Below are positions 2,464 to 23,681 of a DNA stretch of 23,681 bases, one piece after another. The stretch's first letter is position 1; the number at the start of each line of letters is the position of its first letter. Origin of the DNA: a virus; IMG/VR virus record IMGVR_UViG_3300032223_002502, positions 1-23,681 of that record, one strand, 5' to 3'. A program made the position numbers and the translations under genes. The notes below the pieces were generated by a model, which saw only the letters and a program-made list of their open reading frames with translations, made no database searches and was not told where the DNA came from.

Positions 2464-2928
2464 ATGGAACGCGTCGAGAACCCCATCCGATCGCTGACCA
2501 TTGCCATGCTCGAGCAAGCCGTCGAGGACTACGTCACCCTGCGCGAGCTCGGCTGCGTGCGGGCTCAGGAGGTCGTGAAGGAGAAGTGGCGTTACGAGGT
2601 CGGGCTCGACTGGCGGTACAGCCCGCTGGGCTACCGGGCACCCAGGCAAGTGGCCGAGCTGATCGAGTTCCTCATGGGGCCGTACTTTGAGAAATTCTGC
2701 GACCACCTCTCGACCGAGAGCGTCAAATGGCAGTCGTGGAAGTTCCGCCAGCGTCTGGGGCTTGTGCCCGGAGCGACGGCCCTGCTCACCCGCGATGACC
2801 TGACCTGGCTCTTGACCCCCTCGCACCAGCGCGAGCGCCAGCGCAATGCCCGCTCTGGAACCGACCTCCCGCTCTACAACACCGAAGAAAACATCGTCGC
2901 CCATGAACCTGACCTTCAAGCCGCGTAA
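2464..2928 (+). CDS. Hypothetical 154-aa protein of the early operon
   Basis: A 154-aa product, unrecognised. It is charged and probably helical, with aromatic clusters (EKWRYEVGLDWRYSPLGY; PYFEKFCDHL; VKWQSWKFRQ). A catalytic motif is not visible. Its 3' end overlaps the start of the kinase gene by 26 bases, and its position directly before a nucleotide kinase suggests an accessory role in replication or nucleotide supply, but that is only context. Confidence 0.75.
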   Translation: MERVENPIRSLTIAMLEQAVEDYVTLRELGCVRAQEVVKEKWRYEVGLDWRYSPLGYRAPRQVAELIEFLMGPYFEKFCDHLSTESVKWQSWKFRQRLGLVPGATALLTRDDLTWLLTPSHQRERQRNARSGTDLPLYNTEENIVAHEPDLQAA

Positions 2929-3532
2929 AGACTCCAACGGATTGATCCACCCTTTTCCCGTGGTCAAGGAATGGCCAGAGAATTGGCCAAGCGTGGTCGC
3001 TTTCATCGGACCGGCCGGTTGCGGGAAAAGCACCGCCGCGCATTTCCTGCGTGAGAAGTATGGATACTCCCTGCTCAAGTTTGCCCACCCAATCAAGGAA
3101 ATGCTCCGCGTCTTGGGATTGGAGGATCGGCACCTCGAAGGGGATCAGAAAGAAGCCCCATGCAACCTCTTGTGTGGCACCAGTCCAAGGAGAGCCATGC
3201 AGCTCCTTGGAACCGAGTACGGCCGCAAACTCATCCACCCCGACATTTGGGTGAAAGCATGGATGCGAGAAGCCGTCTGGAAAATCCAGAACGGTCAGCG
3301 GCTTGTAATCGACGACCTGAGGTATCCCAACGAGTTGGACGCCATCCTGCGCCTTGGCGGGTCGACTTTACGGATCGTCCGGAAGGATATCCACCAGTGC
3401 GAGGCCCATGACAGCGAGACCCAGCACATCATCAGCCAGCGGGTCATTGTGAACGACCTCAGCCGGGAAGAATTCCATAAGAGTGTTTCAGAATCACTCG
3501 ACTCACTCACCCACAACCAACACGCCGCATGA
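2903..3532 (+). CDS. Deoxynucleoside monophosphate kinase-like protein
   Basis: The 209-aa product resembles the phage deoxynucleoside-monophosphate kinase family (T4 gene 1 type), which phosphorylates dNMPs to dNDPs for phage DNA synthesis. The P-loop is GPAGCGKST at residues 36-44. It is followed by the family's FAHPIKEML segment (60-68), an RRAMQLLGTEYGR segment (96-108) and a strand ending in VIDDLRYPNE (135-144), the Walker-B-like region. The ATG at 2903 is preferred to the longer frame from 2846, whose extra 19 residues overlap the upstream gene and are low in complexity. The 26-base overlap with the previous gene suggests coupling. The stop overlaps the next start by ATGA. Confidence 0.85.
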   Translation: MNLTFKPRKDSNGLIHPFPVVKEWPENWPSVVAFIGPAGCGKSTAAHFLREKYGYSLLKFAHPIKEMLRVLGLEDRHLEGDQKEAPCNLLCGTSPRRAMQLLGTEYGRKLIHPDIWVKAWMREAVWKIQNGQRLVIDDLRYPNELDAILRLGGSTLRIVRKDIHQCEAHDSETQHIISQRVIVNDLSREEFHKSVSESLDSLTHNQHAA

Positions 3533-3819: not shown

Positions 3820-4088
3820 ACCAACCACAGACACCCGACAACGAGGTCGCAAGGCTCCGTGATGAGGCAAATACTTGGCATCGTCATTACAGGGACGAGA
3901 CTTCTATGGCGCAGAAGTGCAAGCAGGCTTTCATTGCCCAGGAGAAAGAGGTCGCAAGGCTCCGTGAGGAGAATGAAAAACTACAGGATATAGCGAACCG
4001 AGCTTGCAATCTTCTCAACCTAAAAGGCGGGTATCATGAATCTTACGAACTCCGCGACGAGATCCAGAAGCTCAAGGAGGCCCCATGA
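3816..4088 (+). CDS. Small coiled-coil protein with internal duplication
   Basis: A 90-aa product dominated by heptad-like charged helices. A 20-base direct repeat at 3843-3862 and 3948-3967 encodes EVARLRDE and EVARLREE, spaced by 105 bases (exactly 35 codons), so the protein appears to have grown by an internal in-frame duplication. Such Glu/Lys/Arg coiled-coil proteins are common among small phage early genes and have no assigned role. ATGA overlaps join it to both neighbours. Confidence 0.75.
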   Translation: MNQPQTPDNEVARLRDEANTWHRHYRDETSMAQKCKQAFIAQEKEVARLREENEKLQDIANRACNLLNLKGGYHESYELRDEIQKLKEAP

Positions 4089-4255
4089 GCGCGGGGAAGG
4101 GATCGGCCCCGAGGAATCTCGGCCCCAAGTTCAGGGAGAACTGGGATCAGATTTTCGCGCAGAGGCGCAGAGGCGCAGAGGAGAAGGCCAGCAAGGAGTT
4201 AAAAAAACGGAACGAAACTCTTAACGCCGGTCGGACGGTTTCACCTCATCCCTAA
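4085..4255 (+). CDS. Small phage protein with NWDQIF motif, interrupted in frame by a repeat
   Basis: The 56-aa product starts in the ATGA overlap at 4085-4088. Its N-terminal part (basic Gly/Pro/Arg-rich stretch, then KFRENWDQIF at residues 15-24) resembles the small phage proteins that end in an 'NW.RIFG'-type motif; their role is unknown. Immediately after the motif the frame runs through the 25-bp repeat at 4156-4180, read as AQRRRGAE, and continues with a Lys/Glu-rich tail to TAA at 4253. The repeat has therefore entered the gene in frame, replacing or extending the usual short C-terminus. Confidence 0.7.
   Translation: MSAGKGSAPRNLGPKFRENWDQIFAQRRRGAEEKASKELKKRNETLNAGRTVSPHP
4156..4180 (+). 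repeat. GCGCAGAG-type interspersed repeat, copy 1 (inside a gene)
   Basis: Perfect copy of the 25-bp element: a CG, then three CGCAGAG(G) units in forward orientation. It is read in frame inside the gene at 4085-4255. Other copies are at 9181, 12367, 13267, 15431, 16696, 17579, 17696, 23199 and 23263. Confidence 0.9.
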
Positions 4256-4275
4256 CAGTCTAACAGCCTAATTTT

Positions 4276-4560
4276 ATGAGCTTCAAGCGCATCTGCACGG
4301 CCACGATCCTCGGCAAGCGGTGGACCATCGGCTTCGGATTCCCTGGCAAGACCAAGGGGATCGTCGATGACGGATCCGCTGACAAGGACCTGCGGCGGAT
4401 CGTAATTCATGCCGCACGGCATGGCCGATCACGTTCCCTCATGGAATGTACCGTCCACGAACTGCTCCATGCCCGATTTCCCGACATCGAAGAGGAGGCC
4501 GTCACCGAGTTCGGTGAGCTGGTCGCCCGCGTCTACGAGAAACTCGCCTCCCACGAATAA
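4276..4560 (+). CDS. Small HExxH metallopeptidase-like protein
   Basis: The 94-aa product contains HELLH at residues 61-65, the zinc-binding motif of metallopeptidases, followed by the acidic run IEEEAVTEFGELVARVY. The spacing of the later Glu resembles the ImmA/IrrE-like pattern, although the protein is much shorter than a typical protease. The N-terminal half (KRICTATILGKRWTIGFGFPG) looks like a beta hairpin, followed by a stretch rich in Asp, Arg and His. If active it could cleave a phage or host regulator; it may equally be a non-enzymatic zinc protein. The start has no SD; the upstream 20 bases are CTAAC-rich followed by ATTTT. Confidence 0.65.
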   Translation: MSFKRICTATILGKRWTIGFGFPGKTKGIVDDGSADKDLRRIVIHAARHGRSRSLMECTVHELLHARFPDIEEEAVTEFGELVARVYEKLASHE

Positions 4561-4590
4561 CCCCAAACCAACCAAACCAACCAAAACCAA
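4561..4590 (+). promoter_or_regulatory. Unstructured CCAAA-rich leader
   Basis: Thirty bases made almost only of C and A (CCAAA/CCAACC words) fill the gap before the ATG at 4591. There is no SD sequence. A similar C/A-rich stretch follows the scaffold gene at 10707-10740. Such unpaired leaders could favour SD-independent initiation; this is inference. Confidence 0.5.
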
Positions 4591-4890
4591 ATGAGCGAAA
4601 GCAACCAAAACAAAGGCACCTTTGTCCTCTTCAAGAACATCAAGCGCGAGGGCGATCACCCCCGCAAGCCGGTCTACTCCGGATCGATCGAGCTGCCCGA
4701 CGGCACCAAGTATGATCTGGCCGGATGGATCAACGAGGGCAAGGTCGGATCCAAGATCGAGGGCCAGAAATACATCAAGGGTGAGGTCAAAGAGCCATGG
4801 GTGCCGCAACAAAAGGTCGAGGGTCGAGAGACGAAGGTTGAGAGCCCGAAGACCGAGAGCAACCTTGCCGAGGACGACATCCCCTTTTGA
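4591..4890 (+). CDS. Small probable ssDNA-binding protein with SSB-type C-terminal tail
   Basis: The 99-aa product has an N-terminal beta-rich domain (GTFVLFKNIKREGDHPRKPVYSGSIELPDGTKYDLAGWI, about residues 9-48), a short linker and the acidic ending EDDIPF at 94-99. That ending matches the C-terminal tip with which bacterial SSB proteins recruit replication partners. A full OB-fold of standard length is not evident, so it is called SSB-like rather than SSB. The linker (about residues 75-90, KVEGRETKVESPKTES) is encoded by the GTCGAG/GAGAG word repeat also found in gene gaps at 9465, 15558 and 20014, so the linker appears to be repeat-derived. Confidence 0.65.
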   Translation: MSESNQNKGTFVLFKNIKREGDHPRKPVYSGSIELPDGTKYDLAGWINEGKVGSKIEGQKYIKGEVKEPWVPQQKVEGRETKVESPKTESNLAEDDIPF

Positions 4891-4987
4891 AACCTGAAAT
4901 TGGAAACCTGAAATCTGAAAGAAAACCAACCGACTGAATCCCTTCTGACTCAGGTCTCAGGTCTCAAGCTTCATCCTTCACTCCATC
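4891..4987. repeat. Gap before terminase: ACCTGAAA words and inverted TCAGGTCTC words
   Basis: The 97-base gap holds repeated ACCTGAAA-type words (4891-4920) and, about 30 bases on, TCAGGTCTC words in the opposite sense (4950-4968), which can pair with them. The same two-part arrangement recurs at 19861-19935. No SD precedes the terminase ATG at 4988; the bases before it are pyrimidine-rich. Confidence 0.7.
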
Positions 4988-6676
4988 ATGCTCCAAACTC
5001 CCCACCCCGTTCATCCCCTGGTCGAGCTGATCGGCCGCCGCAAGGATGGCCGGATCGCGGCCCGCGTGGGTGAGCGGGAGCGGATCTTCACCAAGGACCA
5101 GCTTGCGGCCTTCATCACCGCAAGGGAGGAGGGGATCCGGCTGGAGAAGGCCGACCCCCTCCGCTACGGCCATGAGCCCTCTTCCTGGGTGCGTGCCGAT
5201 GCGGAGCGGGCCCGGCTGCGGGAGAAGTTCCCAGTGGGGGTGATTGAGGAGTGGAACCTTGGCGGGAACCGTGCAGGGAAGTCGGAGCGGGCGGCCAAAC
5301 GAATCGTCCAGCTCATGATCGAAAAGGATTTTGCCAAAGTCTGGTGCCTGCAGAGCACCGAGGCATCCTCGATTGAGAACCAGCAAGGCCTGATCTGGAA
5401 ATACCTCCCGACCGAGTACAAGAGCGAGACGGGGAAGCTCCGCCAAGGGACCACCACCAAAATCAACTACTCGGTGAGTGGCGGATTCACCGAGAACAAG
5501 CTCGTCCTGCCGAATGGCTCCATGTGCGTCTTTAAATTTTACTCCATGGATGTGAAGAGCGTGGAGGGTGCCGAGCTGGATTGTGCCTGGGCGGACGAGT
5601 TGGTCACCCCGGACTGGCTTGAGGCCCTGCGCTACCGACTTCTGACCAGGAATGGACTGCTCCATGTCACCTTCACCCCGGTGGCGGGTTACACCCCGAC
5701 CGTCGCTTCCGTGCTCAATGGGGCCGTGACTACCGAAGAGACCGAGGCCGAGCTCCTGCCCAAGATCACGGGCGAGGGATTTGAGAAGGTCCCGCTGACC
5801 CAGCAGCCGGTCATGCGTAATGCCGGGATCGTCTACTTCCACACCCAGGAGAACCCCTACGGCAACTACCCCTCGCTCAAGGTCGTGCTGGAGGGCAAGA
5901 ACAAGGAGACCATTCTCTGTCGTGCCTATGGTGTGGCGACCAAGAGCCGTGTCAGCCGCTTCCCCCGCTTCCGCGACGATGTCCATGTGGTCGATCCCGA
6001 GTCCATCCCCAAGGAAGGAAGCAATTACCACATCGTCGACCCTTGCAGTGGCCGCAACTGGTTCATGATCTGGGTCAGGGTCGACATTCGTGGTCGGCTC
6101 TTTGTCTACCGGGAGTGGCCCGACTCTTCCCGCTACATCACCGGGGTCGGCGTGGTCGGCCCCTGGGCGGTGCCAAGTGCCAGCAAGGCCGACGGCGACA
6201 TGGGCGATGCCCAGAAGACTTTCGGATGGGGCCTGCAGGAGTACAAGGAGGAGATCGCACGCCTCGAGGGTGATGAGGTGATCCGCGAACGCCTCATGGA
6301 CAGCCGCTATGCGTCGAGTGCGACCATCCTGCGCGACGGGGTGACCACCCTGCTGGATGAGTGTGCGGATATTGACCTGGACTTCAACCCGACCTCGGGA
6401 CGTGCCATCGATGAGGGAGTGGATTTGATCAACAACGCCCTGGCCTACGATCCCGACAAGCCGGTCGCGCATGGGAACGAGCCCCGGCTCTTCATTTCAC
6501 GCGATTGCGCTAATGTCATCTACAGCCTCAAGGAGTGGACGGGCGCGGACGGAAACAAAGCGGCGACCAAGGACCCGCTCGACTGCGTCCGCTATGCGGT
6601 GACAGCCGAGCCGGAGCTGCTCTACGTCGAGGGAGACATCTTGAGACCAACTCAGCACCCAGGGTGTGGCTACTGA
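4988..6676 (+). CDS. terL: Terminase large subunit
   Basis: The 562-aa product is a phage DNA-packaging motor: an ATPase that drives DNA into the prohead plus a nuclease that cuts the concatemer. The Walker-A-like loop is GGNRAGKS at residues 92-99 and the Walker B is LDCAWADE at 197-204 with the catalytic Glu. A C-terminal RNase-H-like nuclease domain starts near HIVDPCSGRNW (about residue 350) with the acidic residues expected for metal binding. Length is in the usual range. No small terminase is recognisable nearby; one of the unassigned small genes upstream could fill that role. A 282-base gap separates it from the portal gene. Confidence 0.92.
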   Translation: MLQTPHPVHPLVELIGRRKDGRIAARVGERERIFTKDQLAAFITAREEGIRLEKADPLRYGHEPSSWVRADAERARLREKFPVGVIEEWNLGGNRAGKSERAAKRIVQLMIEKDFAKVWCLQSTEASSIENQQGLIWKYLPTEYKSETGKLRQGTTTKINYSVSGGFTENKLVLPNGSMCVFKFYSMDVKSVEGAELDCAWADELVTPDWLEALRYRLLTRNGLLHVTFTPVAGYTPTVASVLNGAVTTEETEAELLPKITGEGFEKVPLTQQPVMRNAGIVYFHTQENPYGNYPSLKVVLEGKNKETILCRAYGVATKSRVSRFPRFRDDVHVVDPESIPKEGSNYHIVDPCSGRNWFMIWVRVDIRGRLFVYREWPDSSRYITGVGVVGPWAVPSASKADGDMGDAQKTFGWGLQEYKEEIARLEGDEVIRERLMDSRYASSATILRDGVTTLLDECADIDLDFNPTSGRAIDEGVDLINNALAYDPDKPVAHGNEPRLFISRDCANVIYSLKEWTGADGNKAATKDPLDCVRYAVTAEPELLYVEGDILRPTQHPGCGY

Positions 6677-20047: not shown

Positions 20048-20956
20048 ATGGCCACCGTCACCACCGGATACACGTTCGTCAATAATGAGACGGTCACCCC
20101 GGCCAAGCTCAACAGCCTGGCGGGCGGGGCTTCCGTTTCCAACATAGTTGATTCCGATGTGTCGTCCTCGGCCGCCATTGCCGACACAAAGCTTGCCACA
20201 ATTTTCACGGCAGGGAAGGTATCCAACAGCGCAACAACGGCCACAAGCGCAAATACGGCCAACGCCATCGTGGCCCGCGATGCTTCCGGAAATTTTACGG
20301 CGGGGACTATTACGGCGGGGACTATTACGGCGGCCAGCTTTTCGGGTCCTTTGGCAGGGAATGTGATCGGCAACTTGACAGGAACGGCATCAGCTATCGC
20401 CGACGGTGCGGTATCAACGACGGCAAAGTTAGCCAACTCAATCGTCACTCCTGCAAAGATGACTCAATGGCTTACCTCTGGAACAGCACAAGCGACAACT
20501 TCTGGAACATCGGTTGATTTTACGGGCATCCCGTCTTGGGCAAAGCGGATCACCGTCATGTTCAATGGTGTAAGTACGGCAGCGGTAGTTGGTGGAAGTA
20601 GCAACATTCTTATCCAAATAGGTTCATCAACGATTTCTACCTCTGGATATAATTCGGGAGCAAGTTATGCAAGCACTTCTGGAACATGGATTACATCAAC
20701 TACTGGATTTGTTGCAATACCAAATGGAATGCTTTTTGCCGCCGCGTTGTATTGCGGGAGTCTAATAATTTCTCTTATTTCAAACAATGCGTGGGTAACT
20801 CAAGGATCTATCTATTCTACAACAGGAACAGTTGTTTCATCTGTTGGAGGGGTATCTCCGTCACTATCTGGTGCGCTTGATCGAATCCGCATCACCACGC
20901 TAGGTGGAACTGATACCTTTGACGCAGGGTCGGTCAACATCATGTACGAAGGATAA
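20048..20956 (+). CDS. Second fibre-like protein
   Basis: The 302-aa product starts with a typical fibre N-terminus (TTGYTFVNNETVTPAKLNSLAGGASVSNIVDSDVSSSAAIADTKLATI), followed by Ala/Thr/Gly/Ser-rich segments seen in phage tail fibres and a C-terminal beta domain ending IRITTLGGTDTFDAGSVNIMYEG. A 15-base tandem repeat at 20296-20333 encodes GTITAGTITA. From about 20470 the DNA becomes AT-rich (many AAT, TCT and GGA codons), as expected for a swapped receptor-binding tip. Host attachment is inferred. The stop and the next start share the TAATG junction. Confidence 0.72.
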   Translation: MATVTTGYTFVNNETVTPAKLNSLAGGASVSNIVDSDVSSSAAIADTKLATIFTAGKVSNSATTATSANTANAIVARDASGNFTAGTITAGTITAASFSGPLAGNVIGNLTGTASAIADGAVSTTAKLANSIVTPAKMTQWLTSGTAQATTSGTSVDFTGIPSWAKRITVMFNGVSTAAVVGGSSNILIQIGSSTISTSGYNSGASYASTSGTWITSTTGFVAIPNGMLFAAALYCGSLIISLISNNAWVTQGSIYSTTGTVVSSVGGVSPSLSGALDRIRITTLGGTDTFDAGSVNIMYEG

Positions 20957-21309
20957 TGCTCGCATGGGAACTTGCACGTCAATGGCAGCAGGAACATTCC
21001 ACCGTTCCATTCGAGGATCGGGTAGCGTGGCATCATGCCCATGGCGTCGTGCATTCCGATCCCTCCTGCTTGGTGCTTGCCTCGCTGGTCTCCTGGGATG
21101 CTTTGCTCAAAGCTCCCGCCTCCCCGACCGCGCCGAGGAATGCTTGGTTCATCGAACTGGCGGCGCTTTCCGGTGCTTCCCTAAGCAGGATTTTGCAAGT
21201 GCTTCCTTATCCCATGGAATGGATCATTTTCCGCAGGAACAATGCATTGGACCTGCATCCCTACTCTTGGCCACGCATGGCCAAGCGGGTCGGCCTTCAC
21301 TCACTCTAA
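20956..21309 (+). CDS. Hypothetical 117-aa protein
   Basis: The 117-aa product starts at the TAATG junction with the fibre gene, so it is probably translated by termination-reinitiation. It is rich in Trp, His and Leu (MLAWELARQWQQEH, VAWHHAHGVVHSDPSCLVLASLVSWDALL) with a Pro/Arg C-terminus. It shows no secretion signal and no known motif. A competing frame (20904-21323) covers the same DNA but overlaps the fibre gene and is rejected. It could be a fibre chaperone by position; unproven. Confidence 0.65.
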   Translation: MLAWELARQWQQEHSTVPFEDRVAWHHAHGVVHSDPSCLVLASLVSWDALLKAPASPTAPRNAWFIELAALSGASLSRILQVLPYPMEWIIFRRNNALDLHPYSWPRMAKRVGLHSL

Positions 21310-21327: not shown

Positions 21328-22377
21328 ATGGGCGGACTCTTCGGCGGCGGCGCATCGGCACCTGCACCCATGGATTACAATGCCATGGCGGAGGCGGGCA
21401 TGAAAGCCACGCTCAAATACTATCCCCAGATTGCCTCCCAACAGCTTCAGTACAATCCGTATTTCTCGCAGCAGGCACTCGGTCAGGTCAACAATGTGGC
21501 GGCATTGCTCTCGGGCGACCCGATGCAGCAATACACCCTGACTCCGACCCTCGACAAAAAAGGCAATGTCACCGGCCTGACCCAGACCCCGATCGGGATG
21601 TCTGCCGGAAACGACTACACCAAGCGGGCCGACAATGTCATCAACGAGACGATGTCCCGTGGCACCAATGCGCTGATCGATACCGGCAACCGGATCAATG
21701 CCCTGGGTGACCAGTCCTCCGCCGTGGCAAGTGCGGCCCAGCAACGCGCCCTGGCGGGTCCCACTTCAATCGAGCAAAGCTTCTACAATCAGGCGGCCAG
21801 CGACTTGGCCCTCGGCTCCCAGCTCAATCCCGAGGAGGCCCGCGCCGCCTCCCAGCAAGCCTCTAGCGCCTATGCAATGCGCGGACTGGGAACAGGGCAG
21901 TCCGCCGCTTCCGCCGATCTGCTCAACCGCTACCAATACGGTCAGGCCCGACTTCAGCAACGCCAGCAGGCGGCCTCAGGAGCCAATCAACTGATGGAGG
22001 CCGGAATGAATAACCGCGCCACGACGGCCAGTGGCCTGCTTGGCAACTCGGCCAACCTCTACGGCCAGGCGGGGGGTGCCTACCAGAATGCGGCACAACT
22101 CGGATACGGAGGTGCCAGCGCCCTGGTGAATCTCGACCCGATGCAACGGGCCATGGGCACCGGTGTCAACCTTGGCACCAGCACCAACGGCCAGAACGGC
22201 CAGATGATCGGCAATATGTACAGCCAGAATTTGCAGATGGCCGGGGATGTCGCCTCCGCCAACTACAACGGCCAAATGAGCCAGTACAACTCCCAACAGA
22301 ACAACAAGGCGGCCCTGCTCGGCGCTGGGATCGGCGCCGTGGGCTCAATCGGGGGTGCTGCTGTTGTTGCGCTCTGA
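21328..22377 (+). CDS. Probable ejection (internal virion) protein
   Basis: The 349-aa product has the Gln/Ala/Asn-rich, low-charge composition of podovirus DNA-ejection proteins (P22 gp7/gp20-like class), which leave the virion with the genome to build a channel across the envelope. It begins MGGLFGGGASAPAP, has helical Gln/Ala repeats, a Gly-rich central part and a C-terminal glycine-zipper-like hydrophobic end (AALLGAGIGAVGSIGGAAVVAL) able to insert in membranes. Leader without SD (CTAAC words and AAAATT). The TGATG junction links it to the next gene. Confidence 0.62.
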   Translation: MGGLFGGGASAPAPMDYNAMAEAGMKATLKYYPQIASQQLQYNPYFSQQALGQVNNVAALLSGDPMQQYTLTPTLDKKGNVTGLTQTPIGMSAGNDYTKRADNVINETMSRGTNALIDTGNRINALGDQSSAVASAAQQRALAGPTSIEQSFYNQAASDLALGSQLNPEEARAASQQASSAYAMRGLGTGQSAASADLLNRYQYGQARLQQRQQAASGANQLMEAGMNNRATTASGLLGNSANLYGQAGGAYQNAAQLGYGGASALVNLDPMQRAMGTGVNLGTSTNGQNGQMIGNMYSQNLQMAGDVASANYNGQMSQYNSQQNNKAALLGAGIGAVGSIGGAAVVAL

Positions 22378-23195
22378 TGCTTTTCTCCGAGAAGCTCGCC
22401 ACTTCCCGTAAGCGTCTCGCGGGATGGTTTGCCCATTTCCGCAACCCCTGCATCCTTTGGTCCTCGGGCAAGGATTCCCAAGTCCTGCTCCACCTGATCC
22501 GCTCCATGGGTCATGACCTGCCGGTCGTGACTTTTCAGGAGCCATGGCAACGTGGTCGGGTTAACTTCACCCAGCAAGTGGCCTCCGACTGGAATCTGAC
22601 CCTTTACGACTTCCCCCCATCGGAGCTCGGTCTCAACCGGGGAAATGGCCGCATCGACATCATGCAGCGATTCCAGCTTGGCAACTTCTCCCTCTGGCTG
22701 GCACGTGGCACCGAGCCACCCCGTGGAGGAGAGCCCTTCCAGTGCGGGGTGGAGTGGCTTTCACGCCCTACTGGCGGGATGCAATTCCCTTGGGATGCCG
22801 CCTTCCATGGCCAGAAATCCTCGGACGAGGATCCCTGCTCGGGCAAGGTCCCTCTGGCCCTGGACATGATCGCCCACCCGACCTGCCCGGCCGCACTCTA
22901 TCCTCTCAGAGAATGGACCGATGAGGATATCTTCACCTACTGCGAGCTCCATAACGTGCCGCTGGATCCCCAACGCTATGGCCGCCTCGACGGCGAGATG
23001 GCCGTCCTGCACAACGACAAGGTGGGCAATCCCGACTACTACCGCACCTGCACGGCCTGCCTCGATCCCGATCAGCCCGGTGTGGTGGAGTGCCCCAAGC
23101 TGAAATGCCAGGTCAACAATGTGAGCGCCACCGCCCCCTGGGTAAAACTTGACCTTCCGCTCTGCGGCTATGCCGCAGGGGGAGCAGGGGAATAA
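22377..23195 (+). CDS. PAPS reductase-like ATP-pyrophosphatase
   Basis: The 272-aa product belongs to the PAPS reductase/adenine nucleotide alpha-hydrolase family. SSGKDS at residues 29-34 is the pyrophosphate loop; YPLREWTDEDIFTYCELHNVPLDP (about 177-200) matches the family's 'PL..WT..DiW.Y....iP' segment. A C-terminal cysteine cluster (CTACLDP...CPKLKC) replaces the usual ECG end of sulfate-assimilation enzymes, so it is unlikely to be a normal PAPS reductase. Related phage proteins have been discussed for tRNA or DNA modification; the substrate here is unknown. It starts at a TGATG overlap with the ejection protein and ends at a repeat-rich gap facing the YkgJ-like gene. Confidence 0.78.
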   Translation: MLFSEKLATSRKRLAGWFAHFRNPCILWSSGKDSQVLLHLIRSMGHDLPVVTFQEPWQRGRVNFTQQVASDWNLTLYDFPPSELGLNRGNGRIDIMQRFQLGNFSLWLARGTEPPRGGEPFQCGVEWLSRPTGGMQFPWDAAFHGQKSSDEDPCSGKVPLALDMIAHPTCPAALYPLREWTDEDIFTYCELHNVPLDPQRYGRLDGEMAVLHNDKVGNPDYYRTCTACLDPDQPGVVECPKLKCQVNNVSATAPWVKLDLPLCGYAAGGAGE

Positions 23196-23198
23196 TCT

Positions 23199-23287
23199 CC
23201 CGCAGCAGCGCAAAGGGATTGGCTCTTTAATTTCCTGATTTCCTGATTTCCACATTAAAATCCTTTGCGCCTCTGCGCCTCTGCGCG
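23199..23287. repeat. Convergent-gene gap: inverted repeat pair, copies 9 and 10
   Basis: A degenerate forward copy (23199-23215, CGCAGCAGCGCAAAG) and a near-perfect reverse copy (23263-23287) flank TTTAAT (23226-23231)/ATTAAA (23254-23259) arms and TTTCCTGA words. The arms GCGCAAAGGGATT and AATCCTTTGCGC pair. The structure could act as a two-way terminator between converging genes. The minus-strand gene's stop codon lies inside. Confidence 0.75.
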
Positions 23288-23562
23288 AAAATTGCTTCTC
23301 TGGCTTCGAGACAAAGAGCCGATCCCGGTGTGAAGGACCTGCACGCGGCGGGTCTGGCCGCGTAGATTGAGCACCCGGTGGAGACACCGACTTGTCCGAT
23401 CAATGCCACGCACCTGTTCCCGGTTGTCTTGAGCAGTGGGTAATCATCCCGCACCATCGAGCAAGGAATCCCCGCCGCATCGCTCCGGTCCCGCCGCAGC
23501 ACGGGCCAGCTCCACTTGTGGGCACAGCAGGCCCCGCAGGTTTGGCAATCAAAGTCGCTCAC
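23227..23562 (-). CDS. YkgJ-like cysteine-cluster protein with repeat-encoded C-terminus
   Basis: The 111-aa product has the pattern of YkgJ-family zinc/iron-chelating cysteine-cluster proteins: C6..C9GAC12C13 at the start, then C34 and C51, then CSIYAARPAACRSFTPGSALC (C64, C74, C84). The start is GTG at 23562; an AGGAAG lies well upstream, better spaced to an out-of-frame ATG, so the start is not certain. After about residue 91 the frame runs through repeat copy 10 (AQRRRGAK) and the TTTCCTGA words to TAA at 23227, so the tail is not native. Only convincing minus-strand gene, convergent with the PAPS reductase-like gene; the two may be functional partners. The cluster function is not established. 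Confidence 0.72.
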   Translation of the reverse strand: MSDFDCQTCGACCAHKWSWPVLRRDRSDAAGIPCSMVRDDYPLLKTTGNRCVALIGQVGVSTGCSIYAARPAACRSFTPGSALCLEAREAIFAQRRRGAKDFNVEIRKSGN

Positions 23563-23640: not shown

Positions 23641-23681
23641 GCCCCCATGCGGCATTCTTCTTCCGTGCTCTCATCTTTTGG

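Follow-up and report, generated by a model that had tools for sequence, protein, structure and literature searches.

A PAPS reductase-like PP-loop enzyme and a YkgJ-like cysteine protein form a conserved gene pair in podovirus-like late operons

The gene pair and its conserved residues

Near the end of an IMG/VR virus record of 23,681 bases (IMGVR_UViG_3300032223_002502; this whole stretch of DNA is called the window below), a gene for an enzyme of the 3'-phosphoadenosine 5'-phosphosulfate (PAPS) reductase superfamily faces a gene for a small cysteine-rich protein. An earlier note had picked out the two genes from the letters of the DNA, and both open reading frames (ORFs) were recovered, at 22377-23195 on the plus strand and 23562-23227 on the minus strand. 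The enzyme matched the Pfam family PF01507 with 33.2 bits (cut-off 22.5). Its partner matched PF03692 (CxxCxxCC) with 37.5 bits (cut-off 23) and has eight invariant Cys, which bears out its assignment to the YkgJ type. The features of the pair are listed here.

22377..23195, plus strand: PP-loop ATP-pyrophosphatase of the PAPS reductase superfamily, 272 amino acids (aa); ATG start; from the ORF, PF01507 and the predicted structure
22461..22478, plus strand: PP-loop SSGKDS, residues 29-34
22743..22745, plus strand: invariant Cys123; in the hhalign alignment with BcepIL02 gp67 it falls on the first Cys of that protein's CC motif
23049..23093, plus strand: C225xxC228-x10-C239, putative metal site
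23227..23562, minus strand: YkgJ-like CxxCxxCC protein, 111 aa, with eight invariant Cys; GTG start; from the ORF and PF03692
23524..23547, minus strand: CxxCxxCC motif formed by C6, C9, C12 and C13

Relatives of both proteins were collected from IMG/VR by profile scans. The enzyme profile gave 211 confirmed stretches encoding relatives and the YkgJ profile gave 291, and the best 80 of the 211 and the best 80 of the 291 were fetched (individual loci carry L numbers). Conservation of the enzyme was counted over 40 representatives (alignment A3; the most distant is 32% identical to the window), and that of the YkgJ-like protein over 31. Residues S29, G31, K32, D33, C123, C225, C228 and C239 of the enzyme are invariant in 40/40. 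Both signatures described in the earlier note, the SSGKDS loop and the Cys-rich end (C225xxC228...C239PKLKC), are present in the window. The loop reads S[G/S]GKDS across the family, with SGGKDG in L016 as the one variant. Another Cys near the C-terminus, C263, is invariant in the 17 sequences of a smaller alignment (A1) but varies across the 40 of A3. In the YkgJ-like protein all eight Cys, including those of the C6xxC9xxC12C13 motif, are invariant in 31/31. The ratio of nonsynonymous to synonymous substitution rates was 0.06-0.14 for the enzyme in six pairs from group A, the convergent group described below. It was 0.12-0.44 for the YkgJ-like protein in five of the six, the sixth being saturated. 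Judged from these sequence comparisons, both ORFs look like genes under purifying selection.

Pairing of the two genes and their place in the late operon

Co-occurrence of the two genes in other phages, a check proposed in the earlier note, was found in both directions. Among the 80 enzyme-profile loci, the YkgJ gene lay beside or overlapped the enzyme gene in 58 (5 convergent, 53 on the same strand). It was missing from 18 despite at least 400 nucleotides (nt) of contig following the enzyme, and the contigs of the other 4 end too soon. The enzyme was present in all 80 YkgJ-profile loci, in L140 and L156 as just a partial enzyme end. Among the first 20 of these loci, 19 gave a long enzyme match, and L012, which is cut by the contig end, keeps the C-terminal end of the enzyme. 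The distances among enzymes and among YkgJ-like proteins were correlated in a mirror-tree comparison of 30 loci (r 0.72, reached by 0/2000 permutations), which indicates joint inheritance and nothing more.

The convergent arrangement holds for the window phage and its five closest relatives, whereas the other loci with the pair have the two genes on the same strand. In the 75 same-strand YkgJ-profile loci, the domain envelopes of the enzyme and the YkgJ-like protein overlap, and among 28 same-strand representatives the YkgJ gene is in the +1 frame in 12 and the +2 frame in 16. A fusion of the two proteins by programmed frameshifting was judged unlikely, because both offsets occur and group A is convergent. 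In L062 the enzyme gene runs from 3959 to 5053 and the YkgJ gene from 4792 to 5085, so that about 260 of the latter's 294 nt are nested in the enzyme gene in another frame, the same DNA encoding two proteins. For the reversed YkgJ gene of the window, a simple sigma-70 scan found no promoter. A host-derived YkgJ gene at a contig or prophage edge was also considered and rejected, since in L003-L006 the plus-strand gene series continues after YkgJ and relatives were found in 291 viral stretches. We conclude that the enzyme and the YkgJ-like protein form a genuine conserved module that occurs in three layouts. No description of a PAPS reductase-like/YkgJ pair was found in the literature searched, which covered few subscription journals, and the pair is apparently undescribed.

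Three further enzyme positions, R92, E113 and P176 (window numbering, A3), are fixed or nearly fixed in the 31 representatives counted with YkgJ, and are changed in most of the 9 counted without it. These 9 come mostly from one clade, and include L042, whose contig ends 1 nt downstream of the enzyme.

The enzyme family looks like one of uncultivated phages. With tblastn at E 1e-5, none of 50,697 deposited phage records matched the enzymes of the window, L099 and L022 or the YkgJ-like protein of the window, and 72,556 plasmids held no enzyme match. When E values up to 10 were admitted, the window enzyme gave weak matches in 98 phage records. Among those listed, 90 were Flavobacterium phages at E 4, and the one inspected was a ParB-PAPS-type gene. 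The L062 enzyme matched 18 phage records at this limit, the best at E 4e-3, at genes annotated cysD. A scan of 84,980 cellular species, which starts from two short patterns and can let distant members escape, gave 1 weak match, an archaeal metagenome-assembled genome with 22% identity to the enzyme. In the enzyme tree, a quick version, the archaeal L107 sits on a very long branch.

The pair lies inside a podovirus-like late operon, and this section of the operon probably serves DNA ejection. Two genes of the window precede the enzyme.

21328..22377, plus strand: Gly/Ala/Gln-rich, Cys-free protein of 349 aa beginning MGGLFGGG; its position and composition suggest a virion protein for ejection ('gp14-like')
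20956..21309, plus strand: 117-aa protein one gene further upstream, which by position takes the place of the annotated acyltransferase of Lessievirus

Neither protein had a Pfam or PHROG match. The TGA of the 349-aa gene shares 1 nt with the ATG of the enzyme, and this start-stop coupling is conserved: in 39/40 representatives (L017 is cut off) the distance between the stop of a long upstream gene and the enzyme start is -1 to +3 nt, with 25 at -1, 4 at +1, 2 at +2 and 8 at +3. The upstream protein begins with MGG in 25/39, taking the first ATG or GTG, and is Cys-free in 38/39, the exception (L050) being scored on an uncertain start. As the upstream protein of the window has no Cys, modification of that protein at Cys is excluded.

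The earlier note had the pair standing alone where the structural region ends, which did not hold up. The window record ends at 23681, 119 bases past YkgJ, and the apparent isolation is due to this. In L003-L006 the operon goes on past YkgJ with more plus-strand genes: an MFGY-type gene (L003-L005; not called in L006), an MTAEELALMGY gene and a gene for a giant protein of 1420-1842 aa. The large downstream gene of L022 encodes a DNA transfer protein (phrog_770, E 7.8e-56). Elsewhere in the window are a capsid protein of the SU10 type, a DnaB helicase and, at 2846-3532, a deoxynucleoside monophosphate kinase (phrog_139, E 2.5e-41; PF21448, 53.4 bits). Some of the phages carrying the pair look temperate. 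Integrase-like genes were found downstream in L003 (Phage_integrase, 24.4 bits, below the cut-off of 27.1), in L005 (a near-identical gene) and in L006 (a gene that looks alike by eye), and the one in L003 suggests that these phages may be temperate. It is encoded on the minus strand, and a calcineurin-like phosphoesterase gene (L003:13429-14415) stands between it and the giant late gene.

PP-loop enzyme genes of another subfamily, with a CC...CxxC motif, hold a similar slot without YkgJ in three other phage lineages: Lessievirus (BcepIL02 and JC1; L108, L109), Aeromonas phage phiA008 and ctyzp037 (L110, L111). Each follows a Gln/Ala-rich gene, with a gap of 13 nt in BcepIL02 and 11 in JC1 (against the start-stop overlap of the window), 38 in phiA008 and 2 in ctyzp037. 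No YkgJ match was found in stretches L108-L112. In Lessievirus (BcepIL02 gp67, JC1 gp65) the order is acyltransferase, Gln/Ala-rich virion protein, PAPS-like gene, virion proteins and giant protein. BcepIL02 gp67 is a remote homologue of the window enzyme (hhalign 96.7%, E 3.9e-10), and JC1 gp66, which adjoins the PAPS-like gene, has no Cys. Virion or internal virion genes follow the PAPS-like gene in Lessievirus and ctyzp037. The upstream gene of ctyzp037, deposited as a putative tailspike, matches the DNA ejection protein family phrog_4287 (E 3.1e-15). The neighbours in phiA008 all carry the annotation hypothetical, with no PHROG match for the upstream gene; the annotated PAPS-like coding sequence of this phage begins about 150 nt inside the match. 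The available portion of the JC1 virion proteomics names gp64, gp67, gp68 and gp69 and not the PAPS-like gp65 (PMC9144972), which suggests that gp65 acts in the cell rather than being injected.

Two side observations concern gene neighbours and repeats. GNAT-like or possibly GNAT-like genes stand directly before the Gln/Ala-rich gene at L032:2715-3098, L108:6066-6503 and L111:4494-5063; that of Lessievirus is annotated, those of L032 and L111 were judged by eye, and the L032 gene has no Pfam match. The window also contains nine copies (5 on the plus and 4 on the minus strand) of a short dispersed element, about CTCTGCGCCTCTGCGCCTCTGCGCGA, at 4158, 9186, 12372, 13272, 15433, 16698, 17581, 17701 and 23268, the last within the C-terminal tail of the YkgJ ORF. 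Its 10-base core occurred on average 0.16 times, and at most twice, in 100 Markov-1 simulations.

Comparison with known families

The AlphaFold model of the enzyme (predicted local distance difference test, pLDDT, 87) was close to several PP-loop proteins: CysD (Z 16.4, root-mean-square deviation (rmsd) 2.9, 160 residues aligned), the PAPS domain of FAD synthase (Z 16.3, rmsd 2.9, 157 aligned), adenosine 5'-phosphosulfate (APS) reductase (Z 15.1, rmsd 3.4, 171 aligned), PAPS reductase (Z 14.9, rmsd 3.9, 164 aligned), TtuA (Z 14.4, rmsd 4.1, 168 aligned) and LarE (Z 12.7). Among predicted viral proteins the best structural match was A0A6J7XPH8 in BFVD, a 'PAPS reductase' of an uncultured Caudovirales phage (E 1.2e-28, template modelling score 0.84/0.86, 30% identity). 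This protein, which comes from metagenomic phage DNA, probably belongs to the same family.

The enzyme has the Pfam domain and fold of CysH, and two PHROG families with the annotation PAPS reductase match it, 424 at E 1.7e-07 and 2302 at E 2.2e-07. It also has a CxxC in its C-terminal third, and Cys123 stands where a CysH-like phage protein has a CC motif. However, it missed the NCBIfam CysH cut-offs widely (21.4 of 154 and 12.6 of 165.1 bits), and where the solved CysH 6vpu reads SSSFG the enzyme has the ATP-type S[G/S]GKD. CysH PAPS/APS reductases carry a conserved catalytic Cys in a C-terminal ECGLH motif; C263 varies in the 40 representatives, so the enzyme family has no conserved equivalent. 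In APS reductase the [4Fe-4S] ligands are a CC...CxxC set, whereas in the enzyme C123-G124 replaces the CC and is followed by C225xxC228 and an extra C239. Late-type phage genes lie on both sides of the enzyme, and no sulfate-assimilation gene was recognised in the enzyme loci read. The loop, the family cut-offs and the context all speak against a CysH-type reductase, as the earlier note had supposed. Neither result it had named as counting against its idea, a lack of co-occurrence or a conserved sulfate-assimilation context, was obtained.

By sequence the nearest solved protein is CysD, the PP-loop subunit of ATP sulfurylase (1zun_A, profile E 2.3e-13), whose SIGKDS loop aligns with the PP-loop of the enzyme, both being of the GKDS type. 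Unlike CysD, the enzyme family has four invariant Cys, no CysN-type partner was recognised in the loci read, and the NCBIfam CysD cut-offs were missed (34.6 of 195, 32.4 of 396.6 and 30.2 of 413 bits). With the TtuA/TtcA-type sulfurtransferases the enzyme shares a canonical adenylating PP-loop. TtuA and LarE are adenylating PP-loop enzymes with Cys-bound metal sites, and their fold scores are comparable; the sequence match to TtuA is weak (E 0.72-0.73). According to the portion of PMC7138817 available, TtuA works with a sulfur-donor partner. That partner is TtuB, whereas the phage enzyme is paired with a CxxCxxCC protein of eight Cys.

The YkgJ-like protein had no sequence-related solved chain at E 10. 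A possible parallel is FliB, whose CX4CX3CC motif was likened to PF03692 by its authors and holds one [4Fe-4S] cluster that is lost on motif mutation, and which has eight conserved Cys, as in the YkgJ-like protein (PMC8598068, partial text). FliB differs in being a flagellin lysine methylase; the phage YkgJ-like proteins have about 95-111 aa and no NCBIfam match. For the gene pair itself, a comparable case is gp08-gp09 of FCV-1, a ParB-PAPS-reductase pair in which a PP-loop gene also adjoins a second gene. There the partner is ParB-like and the pair is placed between terminase and portal, so not every phage PAPS-like gene is in the late slot. Between FCV-1 and the enzyme, hhalign aligned 39 N-terminal columns around the PP-loop and no more.

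Possible function of the pair

The sequences show that the enzyme is a PP-loop ATPase of the adenylating type bearing a site of four Cys, and that its gene is start-stop coupled to one for a Cys-free protein rich in Gly, Ala and Gln. TtcA/TtuA/NcsA and DndC combine adenylation with sulfur insertion through a metal or [4Fe-4S] centre. By analogy with TtuA and DndC, we favour, tentatively and at somewhat less than an even chance, a late ATP-dependent sulfur-transfer enzyme that adenylates its acceptor and inserts sulfur at a metal site, with an iron-sulfur (Fe-S) partner. Late in infection the enzyme would spend ATP to adenylate the acceptor, giving an AMP intermediate and releasing pyrophosphate. 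C123/C225/C228/C239 would hold the metal or [4Fe-4S] centre through which sulfur is inserted. The YkgJ-like protein may carry a second Fe-S centre or sulfur and act as the sulfur or electron partner. The acceptor might be, in the first place, RNA or the DNA awaiting packaging and, in the second, virion proteins at non-Cys residues. That it is nucleic acid is a guess, which we hold less firmly than the mechanism, prompted by the nucleic-acid substrates of the named PP-loop sulfur enzymes.

Several points weigh against this reading. The set C123-C225-C228-C239 differs from the CC...CxxC set of APS reductase and is not a proven TtuA-type set either, and zinc is as possible as Fe-S at this site. 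The fold scores of the neighbouring families are tied, and the fold search did not tell PP-loop families apart. Structure prediction, another check proposed earlier, gave a usable model of the enzyme but not of its partner (pLDDT 44.8), and the fold matches hardly extend past enzyme residue 224, into the part with the CxxC-x10-C. The enzymes without YkgJ are one clade plus L032 and L054 in the quick tree, which means that YkgJ is not strictly needed or may be supplied by the host. A search for PF03692 elsewhere found none in 15 of the 18 YkgJ-less records (L063, L086 and L106 were left out; the records are linear and their completeness is not established), while a control search gave a match in 5/5 records carrying the pair. 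Being the best-scoring 80 of 211 and 80 of 291, the locus sets lean to close relatives. No DNA- or RNA-modification family was matched among the 19 window ORFs scanned. The ejection naming of the upstream gene, which rests on place, composition and counterparts elsewhere, is thin: no ejection family was matched by the genes that precede the enzyme in the window, L022, L099 and L032 or by the large genes further downstream in L004 and L099. The place in the late operon could also mean an insertion hotspot with no functional link.

Among the other explanations, the one that survives best, though we consider it unlikely, is that the enzyme is an assembly or modification factor for the adjoining virion proteins, made in step with the upstream protein and modifying it at non-Cys residues, or chaperoning it or its neighbours. 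Coupling to the same gene type in 39/40 representatives fits this, and so do the different-subfamily PAPS-like genes right after the Gln/Ala-rich gene in Lessievirus, phiA008 and ctyzp037. However, coupling may serve expression alone, the upstream protein lacks Cys in nearly all representatives (38/39), and the PP-loop sulfur enzymes that can be named act on nucleic acid or small molecules.

Rather less probable is counter-defence, in which phage DNA would receive a thio- or other modification before packaging and be shielded from restriction in the next host. The late timing inferred from the operon is in line with it, as is an annotated DarB-like antirestriction gene downstream of the Lessievirus PAPS-like gene (three genes on, four in JC1). 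DndC, moreover, is a distant member of the superfamily. The deoxynucleoside monophosphate kinase of the window has been counted in its favour as well as in that of the sulfur-transfer reading; such kinases are carried by some phages with modified DNA, and its presence would fit nucleotide modification without being specific to it. Against this, PADLOC at E up to 1 gave no DndC match for the enzyme, only BrxP (0.045) and QueC (0.058), and nothing for the YkgJ-like protein. No dndD- or dndE-like neighbours were recognised in the loci read, where part of the neighbours was scanned.

A similarly low probability is given to a moron pair that sits in a late-operon hotspot, benefits the lysogen or host and has nothing to do with the virion. 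The integrase-like genes of L003, L005 and L006 would suit such a pair, and the JC1 authors, in the part of their paper available, call their gene a moron and read gp65 as sulfate reduction (PMC9144972). Against a moron stand the fixed place, start-stop coupled in representatives as distant as 32% identity, and the single weak match at 22% identity among the cellular species, a scan that can miss distant members. Least probable of all, and quite doubtful, is a viral cysH that reduces PAPS/APS to sulfite, raising the supply of cysteine or giving redox protection, and has YkgJ for its redox partner: the PF01507 and PHROG matches, the nearness of the fold to PAPS/APS reductases and published sulfur-metabolism readings of phage PAPS reductase genes agree with it, but the CysH scores far under the cut-offs, the S[G/S]GKD loop, the varying Cys263 and the want of recognised sulfate-assimilation genes in the loci read do not.

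The preferred sulfur-transfer reading, taken to its full extent, would make the pair a new two-component modification enzyme, a PP-loop ATPase with a CxxCxxCC Fe-S protein, that is made in step with a DNA-ejection protein and modifies virion nucleic acid, or an RNA required late, by thiolation or in some other way, with PP-loop enzymes recurring in the same slot of unrelated podovirus lineages. As a whole we regard this larger picture as possible, with more doubt than belief.

PP-loop enzymes of phages were already known. The partnership with YkgJ is real and unusual, and the genomic slot is recurrent and surprising. In the available parts of PMC8226683, PMC6802176 and PMC9144972, phage genes labelled 'PAPS reductase' are treated as auxiliary genes of sulfur cycling. 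Since the present family does not pass as CysH and is linked to late virion-type genes, such ecological interpretations may be mistaken in its case. Our results also indicate a recurrent slot for PP-loop enzymes in podovirus late operons. In addition, the poorly understood CxxCxxCC family gains an enzyme partner, and because YkgJ was never found without the enzyme in the fetched loci, its function becomes testable.

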